DNA of 64,000 nt, taken from contig JAVXUO010000067.1 of NCBI GenBank assembly GCA_033065855.1, positions 62,001 to 126,000 on the forward strand, given 5' to 3'. Position numbers and translations under genes: made by a program. Positions 4,523 through 41,878 of the stretch are shown piece by piece (positions within the stretch are counted from its first letter, which is position 1; each line of letters begins with the position of its first letter). Under the pieces are notes generated by a model. That model ran no database searches. It was not told where the DNA came from and saw only the letters and a program-made list of their open reading frames with translations. This DNA is from Escallonia rubra. Taxonomy: Eukaryota > Streptophyta > Magnoliopsida > Escalloniales > Escalloniaceae.

Positions 4523-4543
4523 GCTTGTCCTAAGGAATCTCAT

Positions 4544-11820: not shown

Positions 11821-11832
11821 ATACACCACAAC

Positions 11833-12272
11833 CAATGTTATTAAAGGCGCAGGCGCACCTAAGGCGCAAAAGGTTCCTGGAGCCTGGGCGCAAGGCGCAG
11901 GCGCGCGCCTTTTCGAAGTAAGGCGCAAAATTAATACAAATATAGATAAATAAATAATAGTGCATTAAAACAATAAAATTACGTTAAAAAAAATATAAAT
12001 GACAATTAAGAAACTTTCAAACACTAGGAAAAAATTTCAAATTCCATAACATTATATTTAACAAGCTTCCAACATTAGAAACATTTTAAATCAACTGAAA
12101 AATAACAAATCACTAAGTGAACATAACACCACCATATGTCATGTGAAATTGCAAGAACAATATTAGAAGAAAAAAATATAACAAGGCATAACATTTAAAG
12201 TTAATGTACATAAAAATTTGGAGTTTACAGGCGGGTGGACTGTCACAGTCAAGGGTGGGAAAATCATCAAAT

Positions 12273-12309
<37 letters not shown>

Positions 12310-12808
12310 GGACTGTGGACCGTTGAGTGAAGTAGCTTCAATTCGAACAGCCAAGGAGCAGCAGCAGATAAGATTAGCAGCGAGGTCGCGACGGTGACGG
12401 CGAACGGAGCAATAGACGGCCGACGCGAGAGAGAGGCGATGGTGGCGGCCAGCGGCGATAAGGGCGATGGTGGCCGGAGCAAGGGAAGAGATCAGGTGAG
12501 GGTTCAGAGTCGTGACTTTGTGATACTGATTTAGATTCAGGAGCTCGGATTTTGATTTAGGGATTTTGGACATAAAACCACACAGGCAGATGAAGATCCA
12601 ACGGTTCACCTAAAACCACACAGGCAAATCCAACGGCCAGACTTCGTGCGCCTTAGTGAGCGCCTCCACCGCCGCTCTGCGCCTTGCGCCTTGGCGCCTA
12701 GGTGCACGAGGCGCGCGCCTTATTGAACGCGCTGCGCCTGGGCCTAGGCGAGGCGCAATATGTGAGCCTGGGTGCGCCTTGCTCCTAAGCGCGCTTTTAA
12801 TAACACTG
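11833..12808. mobile_element. Non-autonomous hAT element inside the CACTA terminus
   Basis: 976 bp with terminal inverted repeats CAATGTTATTAAAGGCGC (left) and CAGTGTTATTAAAAGCGC (right, reversed), flanked by a perfect 8-bp duplication ACCACAAC (11825-11832 and 12809-12816), the hAT signature. Many GGCGCA/GCGCCT subterminal motifs occur at both ends. A (GA)n tract lies at 12274-12307. The GC-richer interior (12310-12650) is open on the minus strand but resembles no protein I know. No transposase. Confidence 0.92.
12274..12307. repeat. (GA)n microsatellite in the hAT element
   Basis: About 17 GA dinucleotides. Reading through it gives the meaningless SLSLSL stretch of minus-strand ORFs. Confidence 0.95.
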
Positions 12809-12816
12809 ACCACAAC

Positions 12817-13330
12817 GAAAAGGATTTTTAGCGACGAACAATTCCGTCACTAAAAGTCATTATTCCATCACCAAATTTTTAGCGATGGATACCCCGTCAC
12901 TAAAAGTCTTTATTCCGTCGCAAAAACTTTTAGTGATGGACACCCCCTGTTACTAAAAGTCCGTCGCTAATAACCGCATTGCTAAAAGTTTGGTGACGGA
13001 TTTTAAAAATCCGTTCGTTAAAAGTCCAACTTTTGACGATGGACACTAGATTGGTTTAGCGACGGAATTTCCGTCACTAAATAATGATTTCCGCATTTGA
13101 AATTAATTTTTTTTTGGTTTAGCGACGGAATATTTTGTTGCTAAATATTTTTTTTTCAAATTAATAATTTTCGTCCCAAAAAATCGTCGTTAAAAATAAT
13201 GGACCTTTAGCGACGGACTGCCCATCGCTAAAGCTTTGTCGGAAAACCTTTAGCAACGAAAATTTTCGCCGCTAAAGGATTTTCACAACACTATCCTTGT
13301 AGACATTTGGCGACGGGAAAAAATCCGTTG
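12817..13330. repeat. CACTA left subterminal repeats
   Basis: More than a dozen direct and inverted copies of a TTTAGCGACGGA-like motif, for example TTAGCGACGAA and CCGTCACTAAAAG. Such arrays bind the TNPA-type protein in En/Spm elements. Confidence 0.85.
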
Positions 13331-13469
13331 CTAAACATAATATTTTTAAATTTTTTTATACCCAAACCTGTAATCCTAATCCAATTATACAATCCCAACC
13401 AATCCACATCCATCAACAAACAATTCCCAATTCAGAACAATGGAGCTCCAGATTTTCAGACTGTTACGT

Positions 13470-13650
13470 TAGTGTTCCCTATGGTTAAAATTAGGGTTAA
13501 TTAGGATTTAATTAGGATTACTTAGGGTTAAGTTGGACTTATTAGGGTTAAATTAACATTAATCAGGGTTAATTAGGATTTAATTATAGTTAATTAAACC
13601 TAATTAGGGTTAATTAGAGACAATTAGAGTTAATTAGGATTAATCATGAT
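13470..13650. repeat. Degenerate TTAGGGTTAA-like repeats
   Basis: Imperfect repeats of TTAGGGTTAATTAGG type inside the CACTA interior. They resemble the plant telomere unit TTTAGGG only loosely. Confidence 0.6.
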
Positions 13651-14104
13651 TAATTAGCATTTAAGTTTTTTTTTTCTTAACTATCAATACAATTCTAACA
13701 TATCTTTAATACAATTAAAACACATTATATAACAAATAAATTAAATAAAACATATTATAAGTATTTAGAAATAAAAAGCTTATAAGCGGTTGACAGCCGG
13801 CAAGGTCACTGTGGACGGTGGCGATGAGCATTGGGCCAGAGCTGCGATGGGACGGCGCTGGGGCAGAGGGGCGTTGGGGCGGCGCCACTCCAGAGGAGAG
13901 ACGGTGGGACGGCGCTACAACAGAGGGACGATAGAGGCCAAGGGCGTTAGGGTGGTGCTGCGGCAGAGAAGGGACAGTCGGACGGGATCAGCGTAGGAGG
14001 TAGGGGCGAAAGGAGATCGTCGGTGAGATTAAATGGTCGGAAGGAAAAGAGAGAAGAGAAAGAAGCAACGATGAGAAAGAAAAAAAAGGAAATAGGGTTT
14101 TGAC

Positions 14105-14560
14105 TAAGGGACTTTTAGCGACGAACGTTGCCCATCGCTAAAGGTCCGTCGTTAAAAGTCTTGTTATCAAAATTTTTAAAATGATTTTTTAGCGACTAAT
14201 AATCCGTCACTAAAAGTCCATTTTCAAATTAGTTAATGACTTTAGTAACGGCTTTTTATGTTCGTCGCCAAAAGTCATTAAAATATTACAAATAATACTT
14301 TTAGTGACAGTTTATATTTCGGCAGAAAATATTTTCCAAAATTTGACCGAAAATAGAAAATTGGGAAAAAGAATTTAGGGACAGATACTCCTCCGGTATA
14401 AGTCTGTCGATAAAGATCCGTCGTTAAAGGGTTTTAATGACTAATAGTTCCGTCGGTGAAAACCTTTACCAACAGATATTTACCGATGGATTTTTCTGAC
14501 ACTAAAGGTGACTTTTAGTGACAAATTTTGTTCCGTCGCTAAAAAACCATTAGTAAGGAC
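14105..14560. repeat. CACTA right subterminal repeats
   Basis: Repeated TTTTAGCGACGAA, CCGTCACTAAAAG and related motifs in both orientations up to the right terminus. Confidence 0.85.
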
Positions 14561-14579
14561 TGCTTTTCTTGTACTGATA

Positions 14580-15059
14580 TTCAAGGCTGCATATTGCTTT
14601 AGCAAAACTACATGTGCATAGTAGAAAGTGAGTAATTTTTGCTTCAAGCATGATGTTATGAAGGTCAATTTTTTATGGACGTTAAGAACGTTCAATTTTG
14701 TCTAGTTGACTGACACAAGTAAGGTTTTACCAAGTAGTCTTTTTGAATTACCTCTGAACTTAGAGGAAGCTCTTGATACTATCCCTTAGACATATTAGGT
14801 GCTCGGGAAACAACATACATCGAGTTGCCCCGGTGCTTGAGCGCGAATTCCATGGCGATTCCCCTCCTTTCTATAAAAAGACATCAAAAAGGTTTGTCAT
14901 CTCCGAATTCGAGCCATACTTTGAGCTTGGTTGTGCAGTTCGCGCCAGTTCAATCAAGCCATTAAGACTAAGGGGCCACCTTTGAGGACGAAAAAGCTCC
15001 AATATAGTCGATTACAGTTAGTAAAATCCATGTAACACATACTTTTTCTTTCCCATGCT
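14580..15059. other. 3' flank of the peroxidase gene, nothing else recognised
   Basis: Lies between the peroxidase stop and the CACTA end and should hold the minus-strand 3' UTR. I see no clear poly(A) signal or other feature. Confidence 0.4.
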
Positions 15060-15474
15060 TCATCCATTGATCACCGAACAAGATTGTCTAATTTCACCTT
15101 CACCACCCGTCTTGACTCCAACACTACCGAGTTTCACAAAAGACCGACTCCAGCTCTCAAAAAAATTGTCTTGGTTATTAGCAAAATTCACCACTTTGTT
15201 CATTGTTCTGGCATGATTAAGCAAGACGGAATCAGATTGAAAGAGACCCTTGTGAGCCAAGAGATCATTGTAGTACTGGTTGTCAAAAATCGTGGGCGTC
15301 TGGGGATCGTTGTTTACTATTACGGACACACTTGCTCTTACTGGGCACGTTTTAGTGAGCATTGCTGCATAGACTTTGTCCAGGGATGCGTCAATGAGGC
15401 GAGTTTTCCAGTTGAATCGTTGTGAAATCGCTCGCTGAATGCACTACAATGAGCTGATCCAATAGTGTGAGCTC
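15060..15474 (-). CDS. Peroxidase exon 4: proximal His, C-terminus
   Basis: Acceptor TTGTAG at 15480-15475, then GA completing Gly and [20 protein letters not shown] with the proximal heme-ligand His and a conserved Cys. After an apparent one-base loss near 15399-15407 the frame continues with [60 protein letters not shown] and [13 protein letters not shown], then TGA at 15062-15060. The final Cys and all usual C-terminal motifs are present. There is no vacuolar-type C-terminal extension, which suggests secretion. Confidence 0.9.
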
Positions 15475-16282
15475 CTACAATCATCAAGCATGCCACTTCA
15501 TGTAAATATAGTGCATATAGCTTCAGCTATAATATTTAGAACCTGGGTAATTAAGGTTTACATTCCAATAAGTATAAACAACAGGTTAGTATGATCAAAA
15601 TTTGAGTACTATCCCGATTGTAGGAAGATAACTATAACCCTCTACATCGCGATAATGAATGGTCGTTAAATATCTTCATTGACTTTTATTTAGTGATGCT
15701 AAAAAACTATTACTAAAAATTGTCACTGAAATGTAACTAACTGTACTAATGACAATTAATTGTTGCTATATGAGTAATTGTACCTATCTTTCTACTACCC
15801 GGATAGCAGTAGAAAAAATTCTTATAAATAAGAGTCTTTATATTAGAACATAGGAAAAAATTTGGCTGCTACCCCGGTTGGATGAATCTTCCTCCTACTC
15901 CCTATATAGTAACAATCAATCGTCTCTAAATGTTTCTAGTGGCTTTTATTTAGTGACGCTAAAAAAGTGCTGCTAATAATTGTCACTAAAAGTGTTAGAA
16001 GAAAAATCACTAAAAATATTTAGTGACTATTAATTGTCACTATACACGGGGTTGGAGGGAGATTCCTACAACCGGAGTAGGAGCCAAAGTTTGTTCTAGA
16101 ACATAATGTAATTCTCAGCACTAATTTGGCCCCTGCTACACTTTTTAGTTTCAGATATATAACGTTGAAAGTCTAAAAAGCATTCTTAAATGGTAGACTC
16201 TAATGTTTTAGTGTAGAATGATTCCCATATCTTTCTGAAAAATTCACATATCAATTGTCAGTAATAGTTAATTGCCACTAAG

Positions 16283-16338
<56 letters not shown>

Positions 16339-19300
16339 GCAACAATAGGAGCTTGTCAGCCAACTATCATATATTAGTACATACATTAATAAATGATATT
16401 TATAACTAACCACTTAACACCACTCAATTATTGGGACTATTAGCAACAAATTGATCTCACTACACTAATAATTGTCCACTGGGTGTGACAAAAAAATTCA
16501 TTAATAATATATACCGACAAATGTTTCCCCTGAATGGCGTTTGCAAGAAAACTTTTGAATAACATTACTTATTTTAACCATAGTTTTGGGCTGAAAAAAA
16601 TATAACATACGTTCTCGTACATGTCAATGTTTGGTGTCCTTATCATTTCCGGTTCTCTTTGTAGATATCGACCCAATGAATTGTTAATAAGGGATCCAAT
16701 GAAAAGTGGCACTAACCATACAAAAGTGCCTTATTATTATTATTTTTGTTTTGCTACATGGATCACATAAACAATTGAATTAATGTTACGTGACTTAAGC
16801 CGAAAATGTCTCATATGTTTTTTTTTTCAAGAATATAAATATATACTAAGGATAAATGAAAGATACACCATGTCTAAAGGCAAGTAACAAGATTCACGGA
16901 TAACATCCTCATCCGATAGGAATCGTAATAAAAGGGCAATATAGATATTTTGATTTTTTTTTTCTTTTTTTGAGATATACACTAACTAGTTAAACAACAA
17001 GATAAAACCAACTACAAACTAGAAATTACTAGCTAAATTGGATAAAAACTAACTAAAACAAGATAACTATAACCTAAATTAAACATGATAAGGACTAAAT
17101 AAAACAATCAATCAACAAACACCAAAATACTGTCTGCCACTGACCCAACTCCAGACACGTGTCCCATCTCTGCAACGTGTCCTTGATACCCGTGCACCAC
17201 GCCGGCACTGGAAAAACCCATCTTCTCCGACCAGCACACTGCTGCAGCCACTAAAGCAAAACACAAATGGGAGCTCCATCGGAATCGCCGCTGTCTCACA
17301 ACCAGATCTCAGACTGGATAAAGATCTTAGCACCCTGACCCAAAATCGCCACTGACCACCATTAGAAACCAACCAAAACCACCATAGCCTTGCACCTACA
17401 CCGCAAGTTGCACTGAAGCATCATCACCACCACCAAATTCAAGCCAATATGACCTTTCTGGAACAAAGGAGGGGAGGGGGAATCAACTGGGATGAGGGGG
17501 GAAGACAAACCCCAGAAGTTAAAAGCCTATGACCCGGACTCACCATCTTTGACCCACAAACACTAGGTAAAGTAACCACACAGCAACCGTTTTCCAACCC
17601 ATGCCAACACTTGAATCACGACCCCGACAGCAAAATCACCTTCACATTTGTCACCACAACCTAACCATGGAGTATTCCAAGGACCAACAGCTTAACCAGC
17701 TTCCAACTCTAACCATCACCGGTGCCGGAAAAACAATGGCTCACCACATCGAACCGATGGTCATCCGTCATGACGACAATGACAACCGTCCGGCTCGCCA
17801 AACTCACCAAGATCCCAAAAGAGAAAACGAAATCAGACGAAAATCTATACTACCACATCACCACCCACCGGGAAACTGACGATGATGATGGAGACAGAAG
17901 TTGAAGAGAAAGAGAGGTTTGGCTTTTGTCTTCTCTCGTAGAGAGAGAAAATGGTGATCTTTTGATTCTGACGTCTTCCAAGCACTTACTTGAAATAATG
18001 GGATATGGATCCCCTGTTGTAACCATGGGTTACAACAGGGTGCTGTACTCAGCAATGTGAGAGGGGGAAGAGAGAGACATGAAAGAGAGAGTAACCATGG
18101 TTTGAATCCCCTTTTCTCTATCTCTCTCTTCCCCCTCTCACATTGCTGGGTACCGCACCCTGCTGTAACCCATGGTTACAGTAGGGAATCACAATCCGAA
18201 ATAATGATACTTGTTCTTTTCTTGCATTAGGGCATTAAATCGTTCTACTATTGATTTACCAAGGTCTTTAAAGATTACCAACATGGCTAAATATAATACT
18301 GATACGGTAGCATTCCTGAAACCTACTAGCTTTTGCAATGTATAGGTTAGATTTATTTTCATATATCAAAATATTTGCACAAAAGATCTTCATTCTATTT
18401 GACATCTAAATAAATCATAATGTCTAACTTATGCTTATAAATCTCAAATCCGATATATTGGGTTATTTATGTATAGGACATTGCTTTCATAAGGAGAGGT
18501 GTTCTCAAGGATGTATGATATTACAAACTTAGTCCAGATACTTCGTTCTTTTCTATATAGAACAAACTTTGGCTCCTACCCAGGTTGTAGGAATCTTCCT
18601 CTAATCCCATGTATAGTGACAATTAATAGTAGCTAAATATTTCTAGTGGCTTTTCTTTTAACACTTTTAGCCAGGGACGGATCCAGAAAGTTTAATCGAA
18701 GGGGGCCAAAAAGACATTAAAATTTTGATGGCTAACGTAAAAGTATTGCTCAATTTGACTACTAATCATTTAATTTTGCTTCTCATAATGATTTATTTAA
18801 CTTGGTAAGGTTAATCAAGAACGAATTACTAATCTTGCATGAAAAAACTTAACTCTTACTCTATAGATAAATTACTAATGTGATTATTAACTGTATGAGT
18901 ACAATAGTCACGTATAAGTTAACATATTATAAGAATTTAAACTTCCAAAAAATACTAACCTTGATCAATTCGTGTTTTTTCGTGATCAGGATATTTGAAA
19001 CATAGAATTTGGAAGAACGGAGATGGAGCAAAAAATGAGAAAGAAGAAGACTATGACGACCGCTGACATAAAGAATAAAAAATACAACAAAACGAAACGA
19101 AACCCTAATTAATAAACGTTACGAGATAATGTCATTTGTGTAATTATGAAAAAAAATTCCAAAAGCTGGGGGGTGCCGTGGGCCCCCCTGGTCATGCAAG
19201 AGATCCACCCATGCTTTTAGCGACAATTATTAGCAGCACTTTTTTCGCGTCACTAAATAGAAGTCACTAGAAACATTTAGAGACGATTGTTTGTCGCTAT

Positions 19301-22300
19301 ATAGGGAGTAAAATGAAGATTCCTCCAACCGGGGTAGCATCCAAAAATTTTCTTCTATATAAGGGTACTAACTAACTTGTTACTCTAGCGATTTAACTAA
19401 GTCTAAGGAGGCCTTTTACCACTAAAAGAAATGGTGGGCAGTATTTGTTTAAATCATGCAAGGTACGACTTACCACTAGTTCATGTTGTAATTACATGAT
19501 TGATGTGCCACTAGATTGCTATAATTATGTGCCATTAGTTCGCCGATGACCTCACAATGAACAATTAGTCAGCTATGACCATGGATAAATAGTGGTGGTT
19601 GTGGCAGTTAGAACTGCAAGCAAATCGAGCTTTCTGTGAACAAAGTTCACGTTCGTTCACAAAATAAACGAATCGAACATGAACACAATTTTAGAGCTCG
19701 TATAATAAGCGAATCGAACACGAAGACGAAATTTTGTTCATGAAAGCGTTCGTGAGCAATTCATTTATCTATTCATGTTTATTCATGTATATAGATATAC
19801 ATTCATTATACATATTTAAACATCATTAAATGTAAAAGTCAAATATAAAATATTTCAAACCTTAACTAACAGGTTTTTTGACTCACTCTCTTCCAAGAGT
19901 CGGGCAACGAACCTCATCAACCGCAGAAACATTTAAGGAAGGTTCTTCTTCTTCTCTCTCTCTTCTATATCTCCATCTCCCTATTTCTAGCTATCACCGT
20001 CCACCACCACTTATAATCAAACAAGTTCTTTCTCCTTAAAAAGTCAGCATTCACCCCTTTGTCTCTTTCCACTTAAAGAATTCAGCCTTCACCCATTCCC
20101 ATTAGAGTCGAAAGAGAAGAAGGCTGAATTCTATCCCCCATTCCCATTAGAGTCGAAAGAGAAGAAGGCTGAATTCTATCTCTATCTATTTCACAATCTA
20201 TATTTATTTTCCATGGTTTGATTTGCTGATCTGGTACTGCACGTCTAGATCTGGTACTCACTTCTCCATTGATCAATGTTTAGTCTTCTTCGTCTTCATC
20301 ATAGATCTTGCATATCCGTTCTCTTTGATTTGTTGCATACGAGCCGAGTCGAGCTAAGCTTGTGATCGATTAACGATCCCAAGTTTGACCACAGATTCTT
20401 GGCTCGTCAGGTGTACGAGTCGAGCTCAAGCATCCCTTAAAATTAGCCGAACCGAGTTTGAACAACTCCTAACGAGCCAATCGAGTACTCGTTCGATCGA
20501 ACATGAACAAAATATTAGAGCTCATTTATTAAACGAGTCGAGCATGAACATTTCAAAGTATTCACGAATGTGTTTGTGAACAGCTCTTCTGGATAATAAC
20601 TTCATTATAATATGTTCAAAACTCAAAAGTCATATAACTTAATTATAGTATAAATTAGTTTAAACTTAAAAGCCCTAAAATCACTTAGACAATTGGATCA
20701 AGTAAGGTGTAGTTCTAGTTTGGAGTAATTATTTTGAACGAGAACACAAGTTTTCAAGTTCGAGTTCGATTCGTACAAATAAACGAATGAATTCGAGCCG
20801 AACACGAGTTTTGTTAAACGAACCGCGAACGCGTTCAAACAAGATTTTGAAGATTAAACGAACACGAACACGAACATGAACATGGCCTGAAACTAAACAA
20901 ACGAGTTTGAACATACCTTTGTTCGGCTCGAACTCGATTCGTATACAGCCCTACCAATGATAGTGGTTGCTATGAGATGAAGTCATGTTGATATAGTGGT
21001 GATGCCAGGCTGTCCATGTGGGATTGTATGGTTTTGGACCATCCACTCAAAACAAATTGGACCGTTGAATTTGTGGGGTAAGGAAGCGGCTGGGGGGACT
21101 GATGTAAAAGAAGCAAGGACAAAAATATAGTATATTTAACGGTTCTTAATAGTCAAAACTAATGGTGCGAAACCAGTAATGTTGTTTTAGGGAGATCGAC
21201 ATGGAGGTAAAGGCATGAAGGCATTTCAAGAGGGTGGAGCAGAGGTATAAGATCTGGGGTCTTCATACACATGAAATGAACTTAGCTAAAGATGTTGGAG
21301 TATTTTAACACAAAAAATATCTTTTTCATAAATGAGAATGGTTTGGAAAAGTATTAGAATTTTGAGAAAACTCGTGAGAGAAAAAATGTGCTTTTCTTAC
21401 ACATTAAAAACCTTTTGAGGAGTCTGAGATTCGAATTTGGTTTCGTCAATATTCCCAGATCATATTGCTTCAAGCATTTTTAAGTCATCGCCTTTCTTTT
21501 GCTAAATATAAGGACAAACTGATATTGGATCTCACATAGGCTTATCATTTCTCAGTAAAACCTGCCTACCTTTTCCTGCACAAAGAAAAGTAAATCACGC
21601 CTTGAACAAAGCGAGAACTCTAAGTGTGTGTTGAATCAATTTCTTTGTATGTTTTGAAGAAACTTTGATCCTCACCTATCCCTCATAAGCTTATGGTCTT
21701 CCTTTGGCATGCTCTCTGGGACTCTTTACCTCTTAAATCCGCCCTCTTTTTAGTTTAATATTATGGAAATAATGATGTTAGCCCCTTTTGTTTGGCCCAC
21801 ACTAAGACAGTGGGACACTTTCCATCGAATGCACTGTACAAGACTTGTGTGATTTGGTCTTTTCCCTGTCTTATATTCACCGTTATTGACAACTCCTTTT
21901 CGAAAATGGCTGGTAGCCTGGATTCGTAGCTCGAGCTCCCGCAATAAGACACAATCCAAAGTCATTCACTAAATCTTATCAATCTTGTGGTATGCTTGGT
22001 CACATCAAAATGTGATCATATGCTCTGATGCACATTTGACGCTCACCATATTATTTAGCCAGCCACCTTTTTGGTCAACCAACTTGAGAAGTTAGCACTT
22101 TAAGTTACTCGTAGTACTTGTAAATCTCTCGCTCATCCCTTTTTTCATGCATTACCTTGTTCAACCAAGGCCAATAGAGCTTTGTATGTCTCCCGACTAT
22201 GTGCTCTTATTAATTCTTGGGTGTTCTTTTATCATGTATCACTTATCGCTGGCACGGGGTTGGTGATCACTCTTACTTCTATGAGAATCCTTTTGAGGTT

Positions 22301-25300
22301 GGCCCAAACTTTCACGTCCATAAAGCATCGTAATGCTTAGGCTACAGTATCCTTTTAGGGTGTCGAGGATCAAATGTTGGACAATGTAGGAGAAGCAAAT
22401 GTGCAATGGTGAAAACAGACCTTCGATCTGACTATGTTATGCATAATGTTAAGTGAAGTTTCATTACCTAGAAGAAGTCTTATCCTCACCAAACTTTGAA
22501 TTTTGGAGAGAAGCCATAAGTGATACAGTAGAGTCTCTAATGGTAATTGAACATGGAAGTTAGTTGACTTACCTTCAGATTGTAAACCCAAATGTTGTAA
22601 TTGGAGTCCAAGGAAAAAGTTTAAGCAAGATAGTGCAATTGACAAGTTTAAAGCATGGTTGACATTTTCAACAAAGAGAGGACATTGACATTTTCAATAC
22701 CTTCTTGCATATTGCTAAAATAACATAATTTATATAACAACAATCCATCATTTAAAGTCGCCAAATGGATGTTAAAAATGCCTTCCTATGTAGAGAATTC
22801 GAAAGAAAGATATGAACCAACCAGAAGGTTTGTGCAACAGAAGCATGAGAGTTAGGTGTGTAACCTCTATATGGGTTGAAACACGCTCTTAAACAATGAC
22901 ATGAAAAATTTGACCAATGTGTTCTCGGTAATAGTTTTAAAGCAAATGAAAGCGATAAATGAATTTACAGTAAACCTGAAAAATGGTGAGGATTTTATCA
23001 TTTGCTTGTATGTGAATGATCGTTTAATTTTTGGCACTAGCATGAACATGATTCAGTTAACCAAATCTTTGTTGAAAAAGAATTTTAAAATGAAAGATTA
23101 GGACGAGCAAACATCATTGTAGGCACGGAAATTACTAGAACTCGTGATGAAATATTTATTAATGAAGCTCATTATGTGGAGAAAATTTTATGTAAATGCA
23201 AATAATTTGATTGCAAATCTACATGCACTCCTTTTTATCCTCAAATTCCTTTACCATAATGTTCTTGAACATGATGTTGTCAATGAAAAGGATATGCATG
23301 TATAATGGATAGTCTTAAACATGCCATCGATTGCACAAGGCCTAATATTACATATTTAGTTGGTGTTTTTAGTACATTTACATGTAGACCAAATCAACAT
23401 TGAAATGAAATGTATCGTGTTATGAGCTGTCTTAAAAGAACTATTAACTGCAGTTTGATGTACCAAGGCAACCATCTGTTATTGAAGGTTTTAGTAATGC
23501 AGATTGGATTTCTCAATATGAAGATACCATGTCAACAACAGGCTAATATTAGGTGGTGAAGCTATGTGTTGGATATCTAAAAAGTAACAAATTATTGTGA
23601 AATCCACCACGAAAGCTGAAATTATCGCCTTGGCTTTGGCAAGCGAAGAAGTAGGTTGGCTACGTGATATATTGTTCGAAATGTCTATGTTGAAGAACCA
23701 GTGCCATCTATCTTAATCCATTGTGATAGTAATCGCATAAATTTGTAGATTGGAAAAAAATATCATAATGGCATATTTCGATCAGTGAGAAGATAACAGT
23801 AGCGTGAGATCTTATCTTAGCAATGTGCAATCAACATTGATTATGTAAGGTTAGCCGATAATTTTGTTGATCCACTGACTAAAGCTTTAGCTAGAGAAAA
23901 TATTTGGAGCACATCGAGGTGGATGAGACTTAAACCCAAAGTTATGAAAGTCACCTATAAGGATACAACCTCCTAAGAACTAGAGATCCCAAGTACTGGG
24001 ACCAATGAATTGTAAAGTGCTTGAGTTTTCATACGTGTAGTATTCTTGTTATATGACATAATGTTCATTCGCACAGTGTATTTACATGCTTCTTGTAACA
24101 ATATTGGAGGTCGAGATTCATCTTATTTCTTAATGTTTCTATTGCCAATACATGTGTGATGCATTAGTTACAAAAACATAATTGATAGGCTCACCTCTAT
24201 GAGAGTGGAAGTGGGGCCATTTGCTTTAAGAATTGGGCTAATTCTCTAACACACTCATGAAAACTAGGATAAAGCACATGGCTATAACGTGCTGGCTTTC
24301 GAAGTTTGTTATAGGATACAATCAGTCTCATGTGTGTGATGTGTTTCTACGTATCCTCAAGTAGACATTGTTTTAAGGTTGAGTCTACTTTGCCTCTGAC
24401 ATTGGTAGATTGAAACACTAAGTGACGGTTTCAAGGCAGAACTTGAACAAAGCATGACATTCTCACCTTTGCCCACAATCTAAGTTATTTTTTTTAGTAA
24501 CATAAGCGGGGCAGTTTTGAAAAAACTTTAACAAAGCATTCTCCCTTTCATAAACAAGAATGGTTTTCAGAAAACATGAGAGTGTTTGTGGGTGAGAAGA
24601 TGTGCTTTTCTCACATACTAAACATTTGAGAAACAATTATCGCACACTCGATTTTAAAAGAAACTTTAAAGATCGTATAAGAGAATACTCAATGGTCTCT
24701 TAATAAAAAGTGCCCAAGTCTTGGAATCACACGCGCACTTTAACTACCCTAGTCTACATTCCCACTACAAGACAATGTTTCTACAAAAGGCTAGCCAAGT
24801 AAATACTAATGAATTCCTTAGCAAAGTCTTATAAGGCCATTCACATAGTATCCCGTATCCAAATGTGGGATATCGCATTCTCCCTTGTTATACCTTAGCG
24901 CCACGCTAAACCCATTTTCAACCTTTCACACATAGCTCAAAATCTTATTCTCTAGTCATTGTTGAGGCAAGCCAATTGGATTGGCCCGATTGCAGCATGC
25001 CTTCATGTCCCAAACTCTGCCTACCGATTGGATAACCCAGTCACATACTCCACAGGCTACCCCTGTTAATGTTAATTTTTATTATCATTATTTTCACTGA
25101 TTTCTAGTTTTATTACCTAGTGTCATATTTTTTACTACAGCATTTTATACCAAAATTAATCTCTTTGTAACAAATTTCAAGCATCTACTTTTACACTGCA
25201 CATTTGACCTCTAGCTCTCCTTGTCTCAAACTTTTTCGACACACCAACTTAAGCTTTCTTTCTTTGACTTTTTGATTTCCTATACACTTGTGAGAATTTT

Positions 25301-28300
25301 GGTATGGTATCAGGTGAAGCTTTTGCCTCATTTCTTTGTACAAAAATACGAGTGAAGTAACAGTAAAAGTTGTGACGTTCTAATCTGAAGGCTGTACCGG
25401 TAATAATCTGAAGGGAGCTAATTGTCTTAAGAGAGTGATGTAGTACCCACCTTATCACGCTACTTTCTACTTGTATTTCAGAAGTTTGTACCTGCATTTC
25501 TTGTAATACTTCAAACTTGTTCCCAACCTATTCTGGTCGTACCCAAAGGCTCACTGCGGTCCCATTTTGCATGACACATCCGCACAAGCAACAGTCATTT
25601 TCAACGCTCACAACCGGTCAAAGCATGCACGCTCAAGTCACGTGCACTTCTTACTTTCGTCACGTTACTTCGTCACTAAGAAGCTCATTTTCGCACGAAG
25701 CCTTGTCACGTTTCGACCGTCGCACTTCGCCCGTCGCCCGTCGATGCGCCACGGCACTTGCCCAAGGAGGTTGGCCTTGGCCTCCCCCATGGGATCGGCC
25801 TCGGCCTTGGCCTTCCCCTTGGGGTCGGCCTCGGCCTCACCATTGGGGTCGGCCTCGGCCTGGTAATTGGGGTCGGCCTTGGCCTCCCCATGAGGTTGGC
25901 CTTGGCCTTCCCCGAAGGGTTGGCCTCTGGCCTCCATCCTTAGCACATTCACTTGTCTTCAAGGGACCATACACAACTCCGCGACCCCGGTCTCCCGGAC
26001 ACAACTCTGCGACCCCGGTCGCCCGGACACAACTCCGCGACCCGGTTGCCGGGACACAACCCCGCGACCCCCGTCGCCCGGACACAACTCCGCGACCCCG
26101 TCGTCGGCGTCTGGGCGTCGCACTTCAACACTTCGCTGCACCCGTGCGCCGCGCCGCTGATATAGCCGTGCCCCCAGGCTCTCTGTCACACTACTGTGCC
26201 GCCGGCACCATACGCACTATGTCGCGCCCATGCACCACCATTGACACAAATGTGCCCCCGGCACCTTACGTACTCCGTCGCACCCATGCGCCTCGCCATT
26301 GACACAGACGTGCCCCCGACACCTTACTCACTTCATCGCACCCATGCACCACAATCATGTCATCATGCCCCCGGGCACCACACTCATTCATCACACCATG
26401 CGCACCTTGCCTTGGTCATGGAACATGCTTCAACTCACTCTCCGGAGTGTACATCATCCGCGGGGATAGGCGACTCTTCCGGGACACTATCTCTGCCAGG
26501 GAGCTCTTCAACTCCCCTTCCGCCAGGTAGACGGCTCCTCCGGGATGCTACCTCGGCCAGTCGGGTAGACGGCTCCTCCGGGATGCTACCTTGACATGCT
26601 CCGAGTGCTCCGGCACAAGGACTCACCCGCGGGGATAGGCGACTCCTCTGGGACACTATCTCTGCCAGGGAGCTCTTCAACTCCCCTTCCGCTAGGTAGA
26701 CGGCTCCTTCGGGATGCTACCTCGGCCAGTCGGGTAGACGGCTCCTCCGGGATGCTACCTTGACTCGCTCCGAGTGCTCCGGCATAAGGACTCACCCATG
26801 GGGATAGGCGACTCCTTCGGGACACTATCTCTGGCAAGAAGCTCTTCAACTCCCTTTCCGCCAGGTAGACGGCTCTTCCGGGATGTTACCTCGGCCAGTC
26901 GGGTAGACGGCTCCTCCGGGATGCTACCTTGACTCGCTCTAAGTGCTCCGGCACAAGGACTCACCCGCGGGGATAGGCGACTCCTTCGGGACACTATCTT
27001 TACTAGGGAGCTCTAAGTGCTCTGGCACGAAGACTCTCTTTCTGCCAGGTAGATGGCTCCTCCGGGATGCTACCTTGGCCGGCCAGGTAGACGGCTCCTC
27101 CGGGATGCTACCTCGGCCTGCGGAATATGCGACTCCTCTGGGACACTATCTCCGTCAGGGTGCCTGCGTGACTGGGCTACGTGCTCCGGCACTGGGGGCT
27201 TGCGTCGGCACCTCTAGGGACTATGACCCCCGGGTCACTCCGAGACGGGAGCAGGTCTTCGGAGGGCATCGCGCCTAGTTCACCTTGCAGTTGGGCGTCG
27301 GGTCTTCCCCACCGCTGCCAGGCCTGTGGGACTCTGCAAGGGCTTGGATTGGAGGCTAGATCAAGGGGTTCTCTGGCCACACCGACGCTGTGGGACCCAG
27401 TCTTTCCTGACAGACGGAGCGACGCTGTGCGGGGCAGGCCGGGTGAATATGCGATCTGACAGTCCATGGAGCACCGGCACCCGTGGGCCCCCTGGTGACG
27501 TGTCACTTCCGGGGAGCGCCATGTGTCGGTTTATGACATCATTATCTCAATCTCTATAAATAGATGTCTTGAGAATTCATTAGGATGACTTCTTCTTCAC
27601 TCTCACATTTTCACTTTCTCATTCTAGAATCCTAGAGAGAGAAACAGACATGACCTTGACTCTGGACCTAAGCATCAGACTGTGACTGTCATCGTGTATT
27701 CATCCCGTGTCATCACCCTCGCAGCACTGCCACCCTCAGGCTCTGTCTGGGAAGTCCCTGGTCTCTGCCCTTGTTCCACCCTTGCTGTGTCTCACATCAA
27801 CATACTTGGAAGCTGACTCGGACTGCAGCCTTTGTGGCACCTCCACGTAAGTACGAACCCACTTTCCTTGGCATCAAAACTGAAACTTTGCGAGCTTCAA
27901 TCTTATTACTTGAGGTTTATATTGAGGAAGCAGATCTAGGGCTCACTTTCAAAACAAATCATGTATCATATCCCAGTTCAATCCTTTGACAGCAATGACT
28001 TCCATACTTGAATAAAGTACAAACCATAAGGAGCCACATTAGTTGAGATGCAAAAAAAAAGAAAAAAAAAAAAAGTATAGATTCGAGATGAGTGCACTAA
28101 CGGAGTCAGCAATTTATATTAGGAGGGACAAAATACGTGTCAAGGTAAAAACAGTTTTTCAAATATTTGCAAACATCCTTCAGGTGAGAAAATGGTAAAA
28201 ATACTTGAACAAAAAAAGAAAAAGAAAAAGAAAGTAGTATAATGTGTGCAATCAACTTGAAATTTTGTTGAAAAATATTAGTTAAAGTTAATTAATCCTT

Positions 28301-28557
28301 GATGAATGACGAGTTAGTTTTGATGTTAGTTTAAGTTTTATTTATACGTCAGTTTTTGCAAAATTTTAACTGAATGAACTGCTCATAGCTTAGACTACTT
28401 GAATAATGCTAATACAGAAGGCAAAAAATAAAGTGATCAAAAGAGAGAAGAAAAATGTTGGAGTGGCCATGGCCATCCTATGCCAGTGTGGCCCGGTCAC
28501 TTAACAACTGAACTGGTTTTGACTTGAAACGTATATTAATGATACAAGTCATACCTA

Positions 28558-28612
<55 letters not shown>

Positions 28613-30021
28613 CTGAAGAGAGAGAATGGGTCAAAAGAAGGTTAAATGTGCAGTGAGGAATTAAATAAAATAAAATTAAAGAGAGTAAACTTGAAAAACT
28701 CATCAAATTTTTTTTCCCCGACGGAACGAATACTTTTAAAACCTCCATCTTATATCTCCACGAATTGATGATGCCATATATACGTACAATAGGGCGTTGC
28801 AGAATTTATGCGGACTGCGATGCATACATTTAATATACGCATGTCTTCATTAAATAGAAAGCTGCTGCAGTCATAATTTTTCATGCCTATCCGTGTGGAC
28901 TTGAAGCCATGGACACCGTTATGATGGCCCTTTGGCGTACAGTTGTTTCAAGTAGATTATCACTACAGTTGTTTGGAGACAAGTTACATACCTGAGAGTG
29001 CAACAAGGTCATCCACAGATAACCCTTTGGCTGAGAAGATCTGAATCATCTTGTCCAGTGTAAAACTTGTATCTACAATGTTTTGTCTCACGTTTGAGGC
29101 TGCCGAAATCCTCCCATCCCTCCTTCCCGTCGGAATTTGAACCGCTGGTCCACCGGTCTGCATGGATTACGCTTAATGAATACCATTTTACGCACAGAAA
29201 ATCACGCAACAAATGCAACGGCTTGATATCATAGTAATGTCCCCCGAGCTACTGCATACTCTTTACATTGTTTACTAAGGTAGCAAAAAGTTGTTAGAAC
29301 CACAGCGTAACAAGATGCTCGCCAATGTGTGCGATAGTTTGGGGGATATTTTTGCAACTCATGCAAGAAAAAGATTGTGCGCATACAATTTCAACTGCGT
29401 CTCTAGCCGCCAGAGCAACAATGTCCGCGCAAGAAACTGTTCCGGGACAAAAGAGTTCAGCTACTCTTTTTATTGAATCTATCACTGAAAATCCATCTAG
29501 GGATGTGTTTGCCGGGTCGCTTCTTTCGGTCCCATTTCCTTGTATCAAAATGGATGCATCACAACCCTGGACAGATCAAAGGACAGAAAAGAAGCCACTA
29601 GCATTATAGATTATACACTGCTGGTTTCTTTTGTCGCTAAAGCTAAAATTCTGCTACTATATTTGGTCTCAGCGACTCTAAAACTCAATGCGGAAGATCT
29701 ATTTCTGAAAATGGAAAAACTTGGTCCAACGAATGACATGAAATGACTAATAAAAAATAAAAATAAAAAAATTCACAGTGACCTTGTAGTATAAATGTTC
29801 ACAAGATAACTTCCCAACTGCCACTAAACATAGCGAGCAACAAATATTTATTTCAAACGGGGTTTGTATAGCCTCTTTGCTAGAGCCAAAGTTTTTCCAA
29901 AATCTCACTCATCGTTTGACGACTCCACTTAATTAATTAATAAGTTGCCCTTCTTCAAAATTATTTGTTTGGAAATAAAAAGACAGTCGTATTTTTTAAT
30001 ATAATGTGTTGAGAGTGCCTC

Positions 30022-30052
<31 letters not shown>

Positions 30053-30291
30053 ATTTACCTCAACAAAGCAGTCATGGAAGAGCAAGCGAAGAAGTTTTCC
30101 AGGCAATGTAGGGTCCAAGGAGGAAGCTGATCTCACTGTGTTTTCACCATCATCTCAGCGGATGGGCATGAAAGTGCGTAGAAATCAAGGGAGAGATTGG
30201 AGGAAGAAGGAAAAGCAGAGATTAACAGTGTCACGACAATGAAGAGGCCATGCAGACGAAATGTTGGATAAAAAGATGGTGTTTTCTCCAT
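15060..30291 (-). CDS. Class III peroxidase gene, four exons, 13.5-kb third intron, two apparent frameshifts
   Basis: Secreted heme peroxidase (donor:H2O2 oxidoreductase) of the plant class III family, acting in the cell wall or vacuole. Exons are 30291-30059, 29566-29387, 29157-28992 and 15474-15060, with introns of 492, 229 and 13517 bp, all GT-AG. Phases fit: the first two introns fall between codons and the third splits the Gly codon of SG-AHTIG. Exon 3 has the 166 bp typical of this family. About 332 residues are expected, a normal length. Visible residues: signal peptide, distal Arg and His in [10 protein letters not shown], eight conserved Cys, proximal His in GAHTIG. Two one-base losses relative to the family, in exon 1 near 30140 and in exon 4 near 15400, shift the frame. 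This is either a recent pseudogene or sequencing error. The third intron carries many transposons. Confidence 0.88.
15597..15822. mobile_element. MITE copy A (diverged) in peroxidase intron 3
   Basis: Starts AAAATTTGAGTACTATCCCG and ends with its inverted partner CCGGATAGCAGTAGAAAAAATT. The interior has TTTAGTGATGCTAAAAA and TTGTCACT motifs shared with copies B and C. Superfamily not assigned. Confidence 0.6.
15850..16096. mobile_element. MITE copy B in peroxidase intron 3
   Basis: Long terminal inverted repeats: TTTGGCTGCTACCCCGGTTG on the left and, reversed, TTTGGCTCCTACTCCGGTTG on the right. The interior has TTTAGTGACGCTAAAAAAG. It lies about 30 bp from copy A. No clear target duplication found. 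Confidence 0.75.
16284..16335. repeat. (TA)n microsatellite
   Basis: About 26 TA dinucleotides in peroxidase intron 3. Confidence 0.95.
16340..17990. other. Intron sequence, no gene recognised
   Basis: AT-rich to 17100, then a more GC-rich stretch to 17940 with short open frames on both strands (for example [20 protein letters not shown] on the minus strand). These look like untranslated repeat sequence and match no family I know. Confidence 0.4.
18001..18197. mobile_element. Foldback MULE-like element in peroxidase intron 3
   Basis: 197 bp, almost wholly two inverted arms of about 85 bp: TGTAACCATGGGTTACA and CAGCAATGTGAGAGGGGGAA on the left return reversed on the right. Ends GGATATGGATCCC and GGATTGTGATTCCC. 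A perfect 9-bp duplication GAAATAATG flanks it (17992-18000 and 18198-18206), the Mutator-type size. Each arm also holds the small palindrome GTAACCATGGGTTAC. No coding capacity. Confidence 0.85.
18552..19361. mobile_element. MITE copy C, interrupted by a hAT element
   Basis: Left end TATAGAACAAACTTTGGCTC and inverted partner on the right (CCGGGGTAGCATCCAAAAAT, then TTCTTCTATATA), same family as copies A and B. The interior is split by the hAT at 18672-19213. Confidence 0.8.
18672..19213. mobile_element. Small non-autonomous hAT inside MITE copy C
   Basis: 542 bp with inverted ends CAGGGACGGATCCAG and, reversed, CATGGGTGGATCTCT. A perfect 8-bp duplication CTTTTAGC lies at 18664-18671 and 19214-19221. 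Plant hAT MITEs with CAGGGGCGGATCC ends are common. No transposase. Confidence 0.9.
19609..20953. mobile_element. Non-autonomous DNA element rich in GTTCGTT/GAACGAA motifs
   Basis: Left end TAGAACTGCAAGCAAATCGAG and reversed right end TAGGGCTGTATACGAATCGA are similar over at least 22 bp. The interior is full of CGAACACGAAC and GTTCGTTC motifs in both orientations. Two internal stretches (about 19680-19850 and 20500-20680) resemble each other, so it may be two nested copies. Ends starting TAGGGCTGTA are typical of plant hAT-type elements, but no 8-bp duplication was found, so superfamily is uncertain. Confidence 0.6.
20092..20181. repeat. Two exact-looking 45-bp tandem repeats
   Basis: Two head-to-tail copies beginning CCCATTCCCATTAGAGTCGA at 20092 and 20137. 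Confidence 0.9.
20954..22735. other. Intron sequence with a possible worn LTR, no gene recognised
   Basis: AT-rich, inside peroxidase intron 3. A stretch near 21310-21415 resembles 24540-24640 and may be the 5' LTR of the copia relic. No coding match was found in 21500-22700. Confidence 0.4.
21305..24645 (+). repeat. Pair of diverged direct repeats, candidate LTRs of the copia relic
   Basis: The stretch near 21310-21415 (TTTTTCATAAATGAGAATGG, then AAATGTGCTTTTCTTACACA) is similar to about 24540-24640 (CTTTCATAAACAAGAATGGT, then AGATGTGCTTTTCTCACATA). They flank the copia relic in direct orientation. Borders and target duplication are not visible, so this is tentative. Confidence 0.4.
22736..23975 (+). 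mobile_element. Old Ty1/copia relic: RT and RNase H parts
   Basis: Weak copia pol signals in order: a LYGLKQ-like stretch near 22870, [20 protein letters not shown] near 22990 (the YVDD region), FINEAHYVE near 23160, and near 23870 [19 protein letters not shown], the usual end of copia RNase H. It is heavily broken, with many breaks, and clearly much older than the element at 1772-6953. It lies in the sense direction opposite to the peroxidase gene. Confidence 0.8.
24737..24874 (-). mobile_element. TRIM-type LTR, related to 10386-10887
   Basis: On the minus strand it starts TGCGATATCCCACATTTGG and carries GGCCTTATAAGACTTTGC and TTGGCTAGCCTTTTG, aligning with the LTR of the TRIM at 10386. The bases just outside (TAAGGTATAACAAGGGAGAA) resemble that element's purine tract. 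A second LTR was not found, so it is a partial copy. Confidence 0.6.
25758..25930. repeat. Minisatellite of GGTCGGCCTCGGCCTTGG type
   Basis: About eight imperfect units of 18-24 bp mixing GGCCTCGGCCTTGGCC and CCCCATTGGGGTCGGC. Some alternate with CCCATGAGGTTGGCC. Confidence 0.8.
25981..26100. repeat. 28-bp minisatellite
   Basis: Four units beginning GCGACCCCGG and ending CGGACACAACTCC, starting at 25981, 26009, 26037 and about 26064. Confidence 0.9.
26168..26400. repeat. Imperfect repeats of about 60 bp
   Basis: Three to four units sharing TGCCCCCGGCACC, CGTCGCACCCATGC and CATTGACACA. Confidence 0.7.
26461..27150. repeat. 169-bp tandem repeat with internal subrepeats
   Basis: GGGGATAGGCGACTC recurs at 26461, 26630, 26799 and 26968, exactly 169 bp apart. 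Each unit contains two copies of a 35-bp subunit with GTAGACGGCTCCTCCGGGAT. After 27000 the array decays into shorter units. Confidence 0.92.
27555..27562 (+). promoter_or_regulatory. Candidate TATA box after the minisatellite block
   Basis: TATAAATA within TCTCTATAAATAGATG, then a CT-rich leader-like stretch. It may be the promoter of an LTR or of a lost element. It points away from the peroxidase gene. Confidence 0.45.
27851..28985. other. Intron sequence next to exon 3, no gene recognised
   Basis: AT-rich with A-rich tracts near 28050-28075 and 28205-28235 and a (GA)n at 28561-28609. It runs to the splice donor of intron 3. Confidence 0.5.
28561..28609. repeat. (AG)n microsatellite
   Basis: About 24 AG dinucleotides, 0.4 kb inside intron 3. 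Confidence 0.95.
28992..29157 (-). CDS. Peroxidase exon 3
   Basis: 166 bp after TGCAG, reading [20 protein letters not shown], then [20 protein letters not shown] and [15 protein letters not shown] plus one base of a Gly codon. GGPxxxxPxGRRDG is the family motif. The donor G|GTATGT matches the plant consensus. The next exon must begin with two bases completing Gly and then AHTIG. The only such exon seen is at 15474, 13.5 kb away on the same strand. Confidence 0.93.
29387..29566 (-). CDS. Peroxidase exon 2
   Basis: 180 bp, open, beginning after CCAG. It reads [40 protein letters not shown] and [24 protein letters not shown] holds calcium ligands and a conserved Cys. CPGxVSCADI-AARDAV is a signature of class III peroxidases. 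Donor ATT|GTATGC. Size and borders match the usual second exon of the family. Confidence 0.93.
30018..30051. repeat. (GT)n(GA)n microsatellite in peroxidase intron 1
   Basis: GT repeats followed by GA repeats, a few bases from the exon 1 donor (30058). Confidence 0.9.
30059..30291 (-). CDS. Peroxidase exon 1: signal peptide, distal Arg/His site
   Basis: ATG at 30291-30289 opens [20 protein letters not shown] and [15 protein letters not shown], a basic start then a hydrophobic core, giving a clear signal peptide cleaved around residues 28-31. Then [14 protein letters not shown] (first conserved Cys) and, after a one-base shift in an A run near 30140-30144, [20 protein letters not shown] and FHDCFVE with the distal catalytic Arg and His and the Asp that binds calcium. 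The donor is GAG|GTAAAT at 30059/30058. The start was chosen because it is the only in-frame Met before the hydrophobic stretch. Confidence 0.87.
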
Positions 30292-32242
30292 ATGGGTCGA
30301 ACCACAAAGAATGTATCAAGCTGAAATGGACGGTATGACTTTGAAAAGAAAGAGGGATAGAAAGAAGACTATGTTTACATATTTAAGGCTTGCATTTATT
30401 GGTTAGGTGATGGCAGAAGGTTGATGTGCTCACCCGCAGAAAGTATTGCGAGCGACTCAAAATTATGGTTGTGAAAGTAAGCCATATAAGAGTTGTGATC
30501 TTGAATGATAGTGATCATTGATTTTGAAGCGTGTAACATTTTCTATACTTCGAACAGTTGGCGTTCAAAAAATAGTAAGAAAAAGGGAGAAAAGATGAAG
30601 TAGAATTCTTGAAGTTGATTATTTTTTTGGACGAAGTTAATTATTTGGTGCAAGTCTTTATTGATCTATTGTTTCACGCTCAAACATATTTTTTAGTATA
30701 TTAGTATTCTTGGCTTAATATATTCTTAACGACTGATGAGAATGATCACGACCTAGTTTCAAAAGTTGCTTCTTGTAACGACGTGTCTCAATTTAGCCTT
30801 AGTACTGCTGCTTAAAAATTCTTTAACATTATTATGCCATTCAAATTTGAAATAGTCACTATAGCGTAATTAGGGATTCAACTTTTAGAACTCTACTAAA
30901 GTTCGTATCCTATGATCATTCTTTCTTGTTTCCCATGGAGAAAAACTTGTATAGTTGCTACTTAGAAGATACAAATAATTTCATTGTACATTTGTACCGA
31001 AGAGTTTGAAGCAATTTGACAAGAGTTTCTTATAACACAATGGAAATCATTTTTTGCGTTCCTTGAAAAAAGGTTTGTTTGAGTCCCCATCTTGAATTCC
31101 AGATGAATCAAACTGCTAGTTCACTCCAGCGGTTGGCTTCTTACTTTTTTTCCCCTAATTTCTTTTGTTATCACTTAATTTTAAGTAAAATGTTCAAAAG
31201 TTATTGAACAAAATTTTACTTAAATATAATAATTACCACCATTATGCGGCACAATTAATTTCCTGACAACAACACCCTACCACACTAGAGTGATCACCAC
31301 TACAATTATCGTGTCCCTTTTGTCGCTACCATAGTTACCACTACCTAGTCGGAACTACCGCCATTGCACCACTATGGCCACCGCCAACACCATCACTATC
31401 ATGAGGATACCGGCACCTCTACCACATTACACCATCGCCGCCACCAACCCCCCCCCCCCCCCCCCAGTTCTCCAAAATCATCTCTATATCCACCACACTA
31501 CCGTCACATTTCTACCACCATCGTCACCATTGCTCAACCACCACTATGGGGATATGCATCCCAAAAAATCTAGTTGTTGAGATAGCCATCTAATTTTTAG
31601 AGTTAATCTCAGATGATCAACAGTAGGAATATGAAAATCCTAAAATTGACTCTAGATCACCAATCAAGCCATCTAAGAACCCCCAGATACAGATTTGGGG
31701 AGTAATTTATTTCACACCCCTAAAGAGGTCTCTACTTGTTTTTATTGACTTTGGATGATTTTTTATTTAAAAGTAAGTACAAACCCTGATTTCACCTTCT
31801 ATTGATTTGAACTCAACAACTAGAGCTGAGTAGCCAACTTACTCGAGTGGACTAATCGAGATCAAAACCTTGTGTTCCAACCCTAGGGGAGGAGACATAA
31901 ACTCTGCTCGTGGGTTTTTTGAAAATAGTTATGCAACTATATTCTATCAAATTGAGTACTGGAAAACTATTTTTTTTCCCAAGGACCAGAATTTGACTAT
32001 TCAGGGAGGGACTTAATATACTCTAGTTACAAAAGTAGAGAAGTTATAACTTTAATCTGGATTGCCTAGCTGTCGGTTGGATTTATCCACGATGTAAGAG
32101 AGTTGTAAGTAAAAGTGGATGAATACATTTATATGGGGAAGTGGATCGCAATATATTATCTCTCTAGATGCAAGAACCTCATGGAATAATGATAGCCTTT
32201 AAGGGATTTTATTTTTTTAATGTGTATAGGGCTGTCTAAGGG
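30292..32242. other. Peroxidase 5' flank and unassigned sequence
   Basis: 30292 onward is the minus-strand promoter side. A CCAAT motif lies near 30400 on that strand, but no convincing TATA box was found. A CCACC-rich patch around 31260-31470 includes a run of about 19 C at 31448-31466. No other gene seen. Confidence 0.45.
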
Positions 32243-39832: not shown

Positions 39833-40345
39833 TTGGTAAAGTGGTTCGTCGAGCTGGGGGAATTCGAAATCCAATATAAACCTTGCACTGTAATTAAAGC
39901 TCAAGCCCTATCAGACTTTATTGTCGAGTGTACGTTACCTGAAGACCCCCCTCAGTTAATGATTTCTGAGGTTACAGATCCTTGGAATCTTTATGAAGAC
40001 GGTTCTTCAGCTGTTGGTGGTAGTGGAGCCGGAATCATTCTTATAAATCCAGAAGGTTTTACTATTGAGTACGCGCTTTGCCTTGGATTTCAAGCCTCAA
40101 ATAACGTAGCAGAATATGAGGCTCTTCTCGCGGGGATAAGGCTAGCACATGCTTTAAAGGTGGACTCGCTATCAGTTCATAGTGATTCCCAACTGGTGGT
40201 CAATCATGTCTTAGGAGATTACGAGGCCAGAGACGAAAGAATGGCTCAATATCTCCAGTTAGTTAAAACTTCACCATTCGTCAAATCCCCCGAGATCAGA
40301 ATACTCAGGCGGATACATTATCAAGGCTCGCTTTCGCCGAAGTAA
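39833..40345 (+). pseudogene. Gypsy RNase H part (first copy)
   Basis: VKWFVELGEFEIQYKPCTVI, then WNLYEDGSSAVGGSGAGIIL, QASNNVAEYEALLAGIRLAH and SLSVHSDSQLVVNHVLGDYE give the D, E and D positions of a plant-type RNase H as used by Tat elements. The triplicated segment begins at 39976, just before YEDGSS. Confidence 0.88.
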
Positions 40346-40538
40346 CATATGTCCGACGCTCGGTTTACCTTGAATTCCTCAAGGATCGTAATATCAGTTC
40401 TCAAACTAAAATTGGAATAATAGATCAGGAACCCTGTTGGATGGACATGATCATCAAATACTTGTCTACAGGTGAATTACCAAGTGAAAGAAATGAGGCG
40501 GGGAACCTTCGTGTAAAAAATGCTCGGTATATACATTA

Positions 40539-41675: not shown

Positions 41676-41878
41676 CATCTTGCCCCGAGGCAAGACCCTT
41701 CTTTTTTGGGGGGACAAGGGGCCCAGACCTTATCAAAACCCCAATCTCTTAGAAATTGTCTTTAGAATATTTTTTTTCAAATAAATGGGTTGTTAAGCAA
41801 TCCAGTGTAAACTTTATCTTTTGCTCGAGCAATAAACTTATTTTTCTAAGCATTGTTGTAATGTAAACTTAGCCAATT

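Follow-up and report, generated by a model that had tools for sequence, protein, structure and literature searches.

The third intron of a class III peroxidase gene of Escallonia rubra, located within a 64,000-nucleotide stretch of contig JAVXUO010000067.1 (C1511:62001-126000, hereafter referred to as the window), is 13,517 bp long and packed with transposable elements. In the reading that we hold to be probable, this intron was inherited in an already transposon-inflated state and was spliced for most of its history, and the copy of the gene in the window was broken thereafter by two deletions of one nucleotide each. The evidence comes from comparison of the window copy with a second full copy of the gene (hereafter the sister) and with degenerate copies of its fourth exon, after search of the genome assembly (566 Mb in 3,222 contigs).

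The window gene, its sister and the origin of intron 3

The gene is composed of four exons, all on the minus strand and in the correct order within the window, with the borders corrected to 30291-30059, 29566-29387, 29157-28992 and 15474-15060. With the sister protein as query, tblastn located every exon a single time in the window, the matches to exons 1 and 4 being split by frame into two pieces each. The parts of the gene are as follows.

Exon 1, 30059..30291, minus strand: 233 bp (234 bp in the sister); leader and distal R..FHDC motif; 1-nt deletion at 30145/30144
Intron 1, 29567..30058, minus strand: 3' half 99.2% identical to the sister (239 sites, 2 mismatches)
Exon 2, 29387..29566, minus strand: 180 bp; one difference from the sister; within a presumed gene-conversion tract (about 29920-29381)
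Intron 2, 29158..29386, minus strand: 229 bp
Exon 3, 28992..29157, minus strand: 166 bp, open; last base is the first base of a split Gly codon
Intron 3, 15475..28991, minus strand: 13,517 bp; GTATGT...TTGTAG; about 6,050 bp homologous to sister intron 3
Exon 4, 15060..15474, minus strand: 415 bp (416 bp in the sister), one nucleotide being deleted at 15399/15398; encodes AHTIG with the proximal His, plus the final three structural Cys

The borders of intron 3 (donor CAG/GTATGT, acceptor TTGTAG/GA) are canonical, and are identical and in the same phase in the window copy and both alleles of the sister. The first-pass annotation of this DNA had already placed exons 1-3 and exon 4 on one strand in the right order, with the split Gly codon kept across GTATGT...TTGTAG borders and with a third intron of 13.5 kb, all in good agreement with the tblastn search and exon alignment, by which the borders were refined. 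The positions and order of the exons thus stood, while the two frame-breaking deletions had been overlooked; likewise, its statement that no further exon copies are visible holds inside the window but not genome-wide, given the sister in two alleles, the exon-4 copies and the pieces on contig C2620 described below.

The sister lies about 112 kb away on C1511, with exon 4 at 193702-194117 and exons 1-3 within 202557-204085; on C1226 lies a second allele of it, 99.4-99.6% identical to the C1511 allele over two long aligned pieces. Both alleles carry exons of 234, 180, 166 and 416 bp, forming an open frame of 331 codons with one synonymous difference between them, and the length of intron 3 is 8,531 bp on C1511 and 8,153 bp on C1226. 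The sister protein covers positions 1-237 of the 237 positions of PF00141 (E 1.2e-80) and matches class III peroxidases among solved structures, royal palm peroxidase (3hdl) being the best in the Protein Data Bank (PDB). It carries R..FHDC from residue 69 and AHTIG at residue 195, of which the histidine is the proximal heme ligand, together with Cys at 42, 75, 80, 118, 124, 203, 237 and 326, which we take to be the eight conserved Cys of class III peroxidases, plus Cys 8 and 29. The gene is presumably similar to AtPRX46.

The third introns of the window copy and the sister are homologous in largely collinear blocks of 77-85% identity. These blocks cover about 6,050 bp of the window intron (13,517 bp) and about 5,955 bp of the C1511 sister intron (8,531 bp), as measured after trimming the alignment blocks by hand and leaving out a few short out-of-order repeat matches. 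Four blocks are found only in the window intron (27884-25517, 21098-19464, 19357-18490 and 18391-16814; about 6.4 kb in sum), and blocks of about 1.0 and 1.1 kb only in the sister intron. The homologous blocks include a relic of a Copia retrotransposon, and since these are shared by the two genes, the alignment shows that intron 3 of their common ancestor was already several kb long, carrying the Copia relic, before the duplication. Intron 3 is thus best read as an ordinary transposon-inflated intron inherited through the duplication. One stretch of sister intron 3 (C1511:194890-195298, about 0.4 kb) is present in the C1511 allele and absent from the C1226 allele; it looks like a deletion in the latter, as part of it aligns to window intron 16813-16326.

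Selection on exon 4 and the probable breakage of the window copy

The ratio of nonsynonymous to synonymous divergence (dN/dS) between the window copy and the sister is 0.215 overall, and 0.146 for exon 4 with dS of 0.33 (24 synonymous and 15 nonsynonymous differences). The exon-4 changes were polarised with the following degenerate copies as outgroups.

Degenerate exon-4 copies, frames broken: C1511:144633-145042 (L012), C186:60600 (L013), C1892:155710 (L014), C28:85233 (L015), C1225:97201 (L016)

After this polarisation, 12 synonymous and 8 nonsynonymous changes fell on the window branch and 11 and 6 on the sister branch, the nonsynonymous share being far below the neutral 78% on both (p = 2.5e-4 for the window, p = 1.8e-4 for the sister). 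As judged from these substitutions, purifying selection is shown to have acted on exon 4 along both branches since the duplication. Because exon 4 holds the proximal heme ligand and would be constrained only if joined in frame to exons 1-3, we infer that splicing joined 28992 to 15474 during most of the window copy's history, and likewise exons 1-3 to exon 4 across the long intron along most of the sister branch. With exon 4 under selection and the sister still open with a related long intron, the comparison indicates that this lineage worked with a long intron 3, so that intron size alone did not kill it.

As assembled, the window copy is dead because of two exonic frameshifts, not because the gene was split: translation of the joined exons from the ATG ends after 52 codons at an in-frame TGA downstream of the deletion in exon 1, and the second frame break follows in exon 4. 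The exon-4 deletion is derived, the base being retained in all five degenerate copies. If both deletions were errors of the consensus sequence, the window copy would be a live gene and its intron a functional one of 13.5 kb. One of the deletions does sit in an A-run, a usual site of such errors, and the constraint on exon 4 along the window branch and the intact splice sites would suit a live gene; the other deletion, however, lies outside any homopolymer, and the coding sequence in which both occur measures 994 bp. Between the sister alleles, whose contigs were assembled separately, nine indels were counted over about 19.4 aligned kb, leaving out an unaligned stretch of about 0.4 kb that separates the two alignments; two of these indels are of a single base, and both of those are in homopolymers. 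Since single-base indels are that rare, two chance errors in one 994-bp coding sequence are improbable, and the deletions are probably not assembly noise. Furthermore, among the 51 exon-4 profile matches listed (150 of 223 candidates were scored), 50 begin at profile position 131-147, and the window copy alone begins late, at 160. We thus regard a live window gene as unlikely, and the window copy as most likely a recent pseudogene.

The gene might instead have been split by transposons and died thereby, with exon 4 long disconnected from exons 1-3. The intron is indeed large for its genome, and the five copies consisting of exon 4 only tell that a detached exon 4 does occur; but all five have lost the original acceptor AG as well as the frame, whereas the acceptor is kept in both full genes and exon 4 of the window copy bears the mark of constraint, and in the sister, with its related intron of 8 kb, the frame is still open. 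Death by splitting is therefore quite improbable in our judgement. The first-pass annotation had offered two outcomes, splicing across an inflated intron or a gene split and dead, and each is partly right, for a different time: the lineage appears to have used the inflated intron, and the window copy does appear dead, by frameshifts instead of splitting. Lastly, a misassembly that joined exons 1-3 to the exon 4 of a different copy is very improbable: although the 3' part is partially duplicated several times in the region, the sister has the same arrangement on two separate contigs, and the introns of the two genes are homologous, in largely collinear order, all the way between exons 3 and 4.

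The window gene belongs to a small group of clustered class III peroxidase genes, and intron 3 of the ancestor that it shares with the sister, with its Copia relic, measured several kb before the duplication. The two introns now differ by further blocks on either side, with lengths of 13.5 kb in the window and of 8.5 and 8.2 kb in the sister alleles. According to the reading that we prefer, that of an inherited intron and a late breakage, gene conversion would have kept exons 2 and 3 near-identical, exon 4, beyond the non-homologous intron insertions, would have diverged, and the two deletions would have come afterward. Several points weigh against this reading. The splicing of either copy is deduced from sequence. 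The exon-4 branch counts represent 37 of 39 changes that could be placed, with outgroups that are themselves pseudogenes, and the purifying selection is a branch average, by which the loss of function is not dated; moreover, gene conversion could have passed the constraint between the window copy and the sister. In four of the five degenerate copies an alternative AG lies within a few bases of the lost acceptor, making the loss of acceptor function uncertain there. Further frame-broken exon-4 pieces could lie beyond the matches listed. Genome queries with exon 4 and 28900-30400 found no second allele of the window copy in the assembly: apart from the window itself (100%), all other long matches were at most 91% identical, short simple-repeat matches being set aside, and comparison of C1226:1-20000 with the window gave two matches only of at least 300 bp (79% and 85%).

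Besides the degenerate copies, the genome holds two short exon-4 fragments. The 3' flank of the gene, up to the part at window 11822-10819, is retained along with exon 4 in four of the five degenerate copies, and a further repeat of this flank lies at C1511:138377-140258. In the copy on C186, pieces of the intron backbone from the stretch between 22485 and exon 4 are preserved in a span of about 2.4 kb. An insertion interrupts this 3' region in the window.

Insertion 3' of exon 4, 11823..14616, unstranded: missing in the sister and in the degenerate exon-4 copies L012, L014, L015 and L016

A further relative is represented on C2620:44218-48640 (L022, L023) by an exon-2-like piece (82%) and an exon-3-like piece (77% with flank) about 4 kb apart; no other exon of this relative was found by the genome search with 28900-30400.

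Transposons inside intron 3 and comparison with other long introns

The elements recognized in intron 3 are listed below, and their copy numbers were counted among 40 scored candidates per query.

Solo long terminal repeat (LTR), 25518..27876, plus strand: 2,359 bp, TG...CA, flanking 5-bp repeat AGTTT; makes up the window-only block 27884-25517
Copia (Ty1) relic, 22387..24588, plus strand, antisense to the gene: reverse transcriptase to the start of the 3' LTR; also in the sister
Repeat resembling a miniature inverted-repeat transposable element (MITE), 20498..20953, unstranded: about 455 bp; part of the window-only block 21098-19464
hAT-type element, 18672..19213, unstranded: 542 bp; imperfect terminal inverted repeats; perfect 8-bp target-site duplication GCTAAAAG
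Window-only block, 16814..18391, unstranded: 1,578 bp; unmatched in the sister intron

The length gain of the window intron is by transposon insertion, with the solo LTR, the hAT element and the MITE-like repeat all in window-only blocks. Scoring gave 39 further copies of the solo LTR, of which 16 match the query over essentially its full length, and same-strand pairs are present on C819 and C1207; the stretch between the paired copies on C819 encodes Retrotrans_gag (E 1.8e-11). The Copia relic, with short LTR-like pieces also at 21293-21370 and 25283-25369, is spanned by 29 of the 40 scored candidates at 75-78% identity. One of these candidates, L056, has an open frame with RVT_2 (9.8e-78) and the integrase domain rve (4.5e-11), and its protein matches window intron 22468-23940 (E 2.6e-84) and the sister intron (E 7.6e-53). 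As the relic is present in the sister too, its insertion is placed by this comparison before the window/sister duplication. The MITE-like repeat has 22 dispersed copies at 89-93%. The hAT element was inserted in a repeat (18558-18670 plus 19214-19352) of which an inverted, uninterrupted copy lies at 15854-16098, and the query with the hAT region gave 15 further copies, some partial. For part of the window-only block (16818-17921), one relative at 81% and one partial relative were detected.

Comparison with the elements proposed beforehand gave agreement for the Copia relic, matched by the RVT_2 protein of L056, and for the nested hAT, with its 8-bp duplication, short inverted repeats and host repeat in an uninterrupted copy. 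Among three supposed MITEs, one MITE-like repeat (20498-20953) was supported by copy number, and the 1.7 kb of GC-rich minisatellites are present, all within the solo LTR. A 287-aa open frame at 25439-26299 was rejected as a gene, as it lies mostly within the LTR and gave no Pfam match at 0.001. Search of 14000-31500 for RNA families yielded none at the gathering score.

In order to place the intron among the peroxidase genes of this genome, the distances between exon pairs were taken from the matches listed; they are approximate, some matches extending into introns, and single matches spanning exons 3 and 4 together are omitted. Among 18 exon-3/exon-4 pairs, 17 are 29-2,145 bp apart; the intron of the window gene is large for this genome. 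The 18th pair (C1395, 11,979) was judged to be a pairing across neighbouring genes. Likewise, 26 of 32 exon-2/exon-4 pairs lie within 1,275 bp and six above 4.5 kb, namely the window gene, the two sister alleles, C2725, C2787 and C3195, the last (7,128) being a probable mispairing across neighbouring genes. Exons 3 and 4 of another class III peroxidase are separated by about 3.7 kb on C2725:6093-11541 (L051) and by 10.2 kb on C2787:143903-155839 (L052, L053), the two contigs being 97% and 99% identical in two outer pieces; this is apparently an intron-length polymorphism or a recent duplicate. As read from these matches, a large, length-variable intron 3 is found in at least two peroxidase genes of this genome.

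Transposon-filled long introns of plants are already known as a kind. The account of grapevine by Jiang and Goertzen (2011, PMC3058033) gives 2,697 introns of 3-100 kb with over 80% repeats, insertion polymorphism between alleles, and some genes misannotated as several on account of a large intron; those introns are of the same kind as described here, but the grapevine case rests on expressed sequence tags (ESTs), and ours on a gene known by its sequence and, in the window copy, frame-broken. For Arabidopsis genes with heterochromatic introns such as IBM1, the full-length transcript is described as requiring passage through a long repeat intron with IBM2, EDM2 and AIPP1 (PMC11265718); the E. 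rubra gene would be alike in having a long repeat-filled intron to be read through. Most class III peroxidases of peach have four exons, and some are said to have several long introns (PMC10780707); the four-exon layout is the same here, with an intron 3 of 8-13.5 kb against 29-2,145 bp in the 17 other pairs of this genome. The literature consulted on class III peroxidase long introns, transposable elements and gene conversion, on IBM2 and on intron expansion by LTR elements does not name this gene, to which we attach little weight.

Elsewhere in the window, three tandem units of about 2,370 bp, 99.5% identical, lie in a retroelement at 39976-47094 and represent a real triplication or an assembly effect; a frame of 225-233 aa recurs three times therein, with RVT_3 nearby. 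At 3710-5095, a Copia reverse transcriptase (RVT_2, E 1.2e-68) is encoded in a 270-aa open frame, followed by a 191-aa frame with no Pfam match.

Presumed gene conversion and the two ends of the duplicate

The identity between the window copy and the sister peaks at 99% in the 3' half of intron 1 and in exon 2. Going upstream from there it is 89% (5' half of intron 1), 93% (exon 1) and 88% (upstream of the gene); in the other direction it is 94% (intron 2), 98% (exon 3) and 92% (start of intron 3), before the 77-85% found within this last intron. The longest run without mismatch is 189 of 2,317 sites, a length equalled in none of 5,000 shuffles, in which coding constraint is ignored. Exons 2 and 3 carry 3 synonymous differences in about 86 sites versus 24 in about 90 for exon 4 (Fisher p = 1.4e-5); exon 1, with 7 in about 56 sites, is less clear (p = 0.06 versus exon 4), though it belongs to the 5' block. 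These differences suggest that exons 2 and 3 were homogenised by gene conversion over a short tract and that exon 4 was not; regional differences in rate would be the alternative explanation. It is conceivable, and is proposed here with considerable doubt, that the long, insertion-laden intron acts as a barrier to gene conversion, so that the 5' block is homogenised while exon 4 beyond the intron diverges, the two ends of the duplicate being uncoupled. If such a barrier holds, it would be a concrete way for intron size to shape the fate of duplicates.

An open sister in two alleles, a recently broken copy and detached exon-4 copies together form a three-way comparison for the question of whether a transposon-filled intron harms its gene. 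The evidence suggests that this peroxidase lineage, while under selection, retained its long intron across a duplication, and that the window copy failed afterwards through small deletions in its coding sequence.

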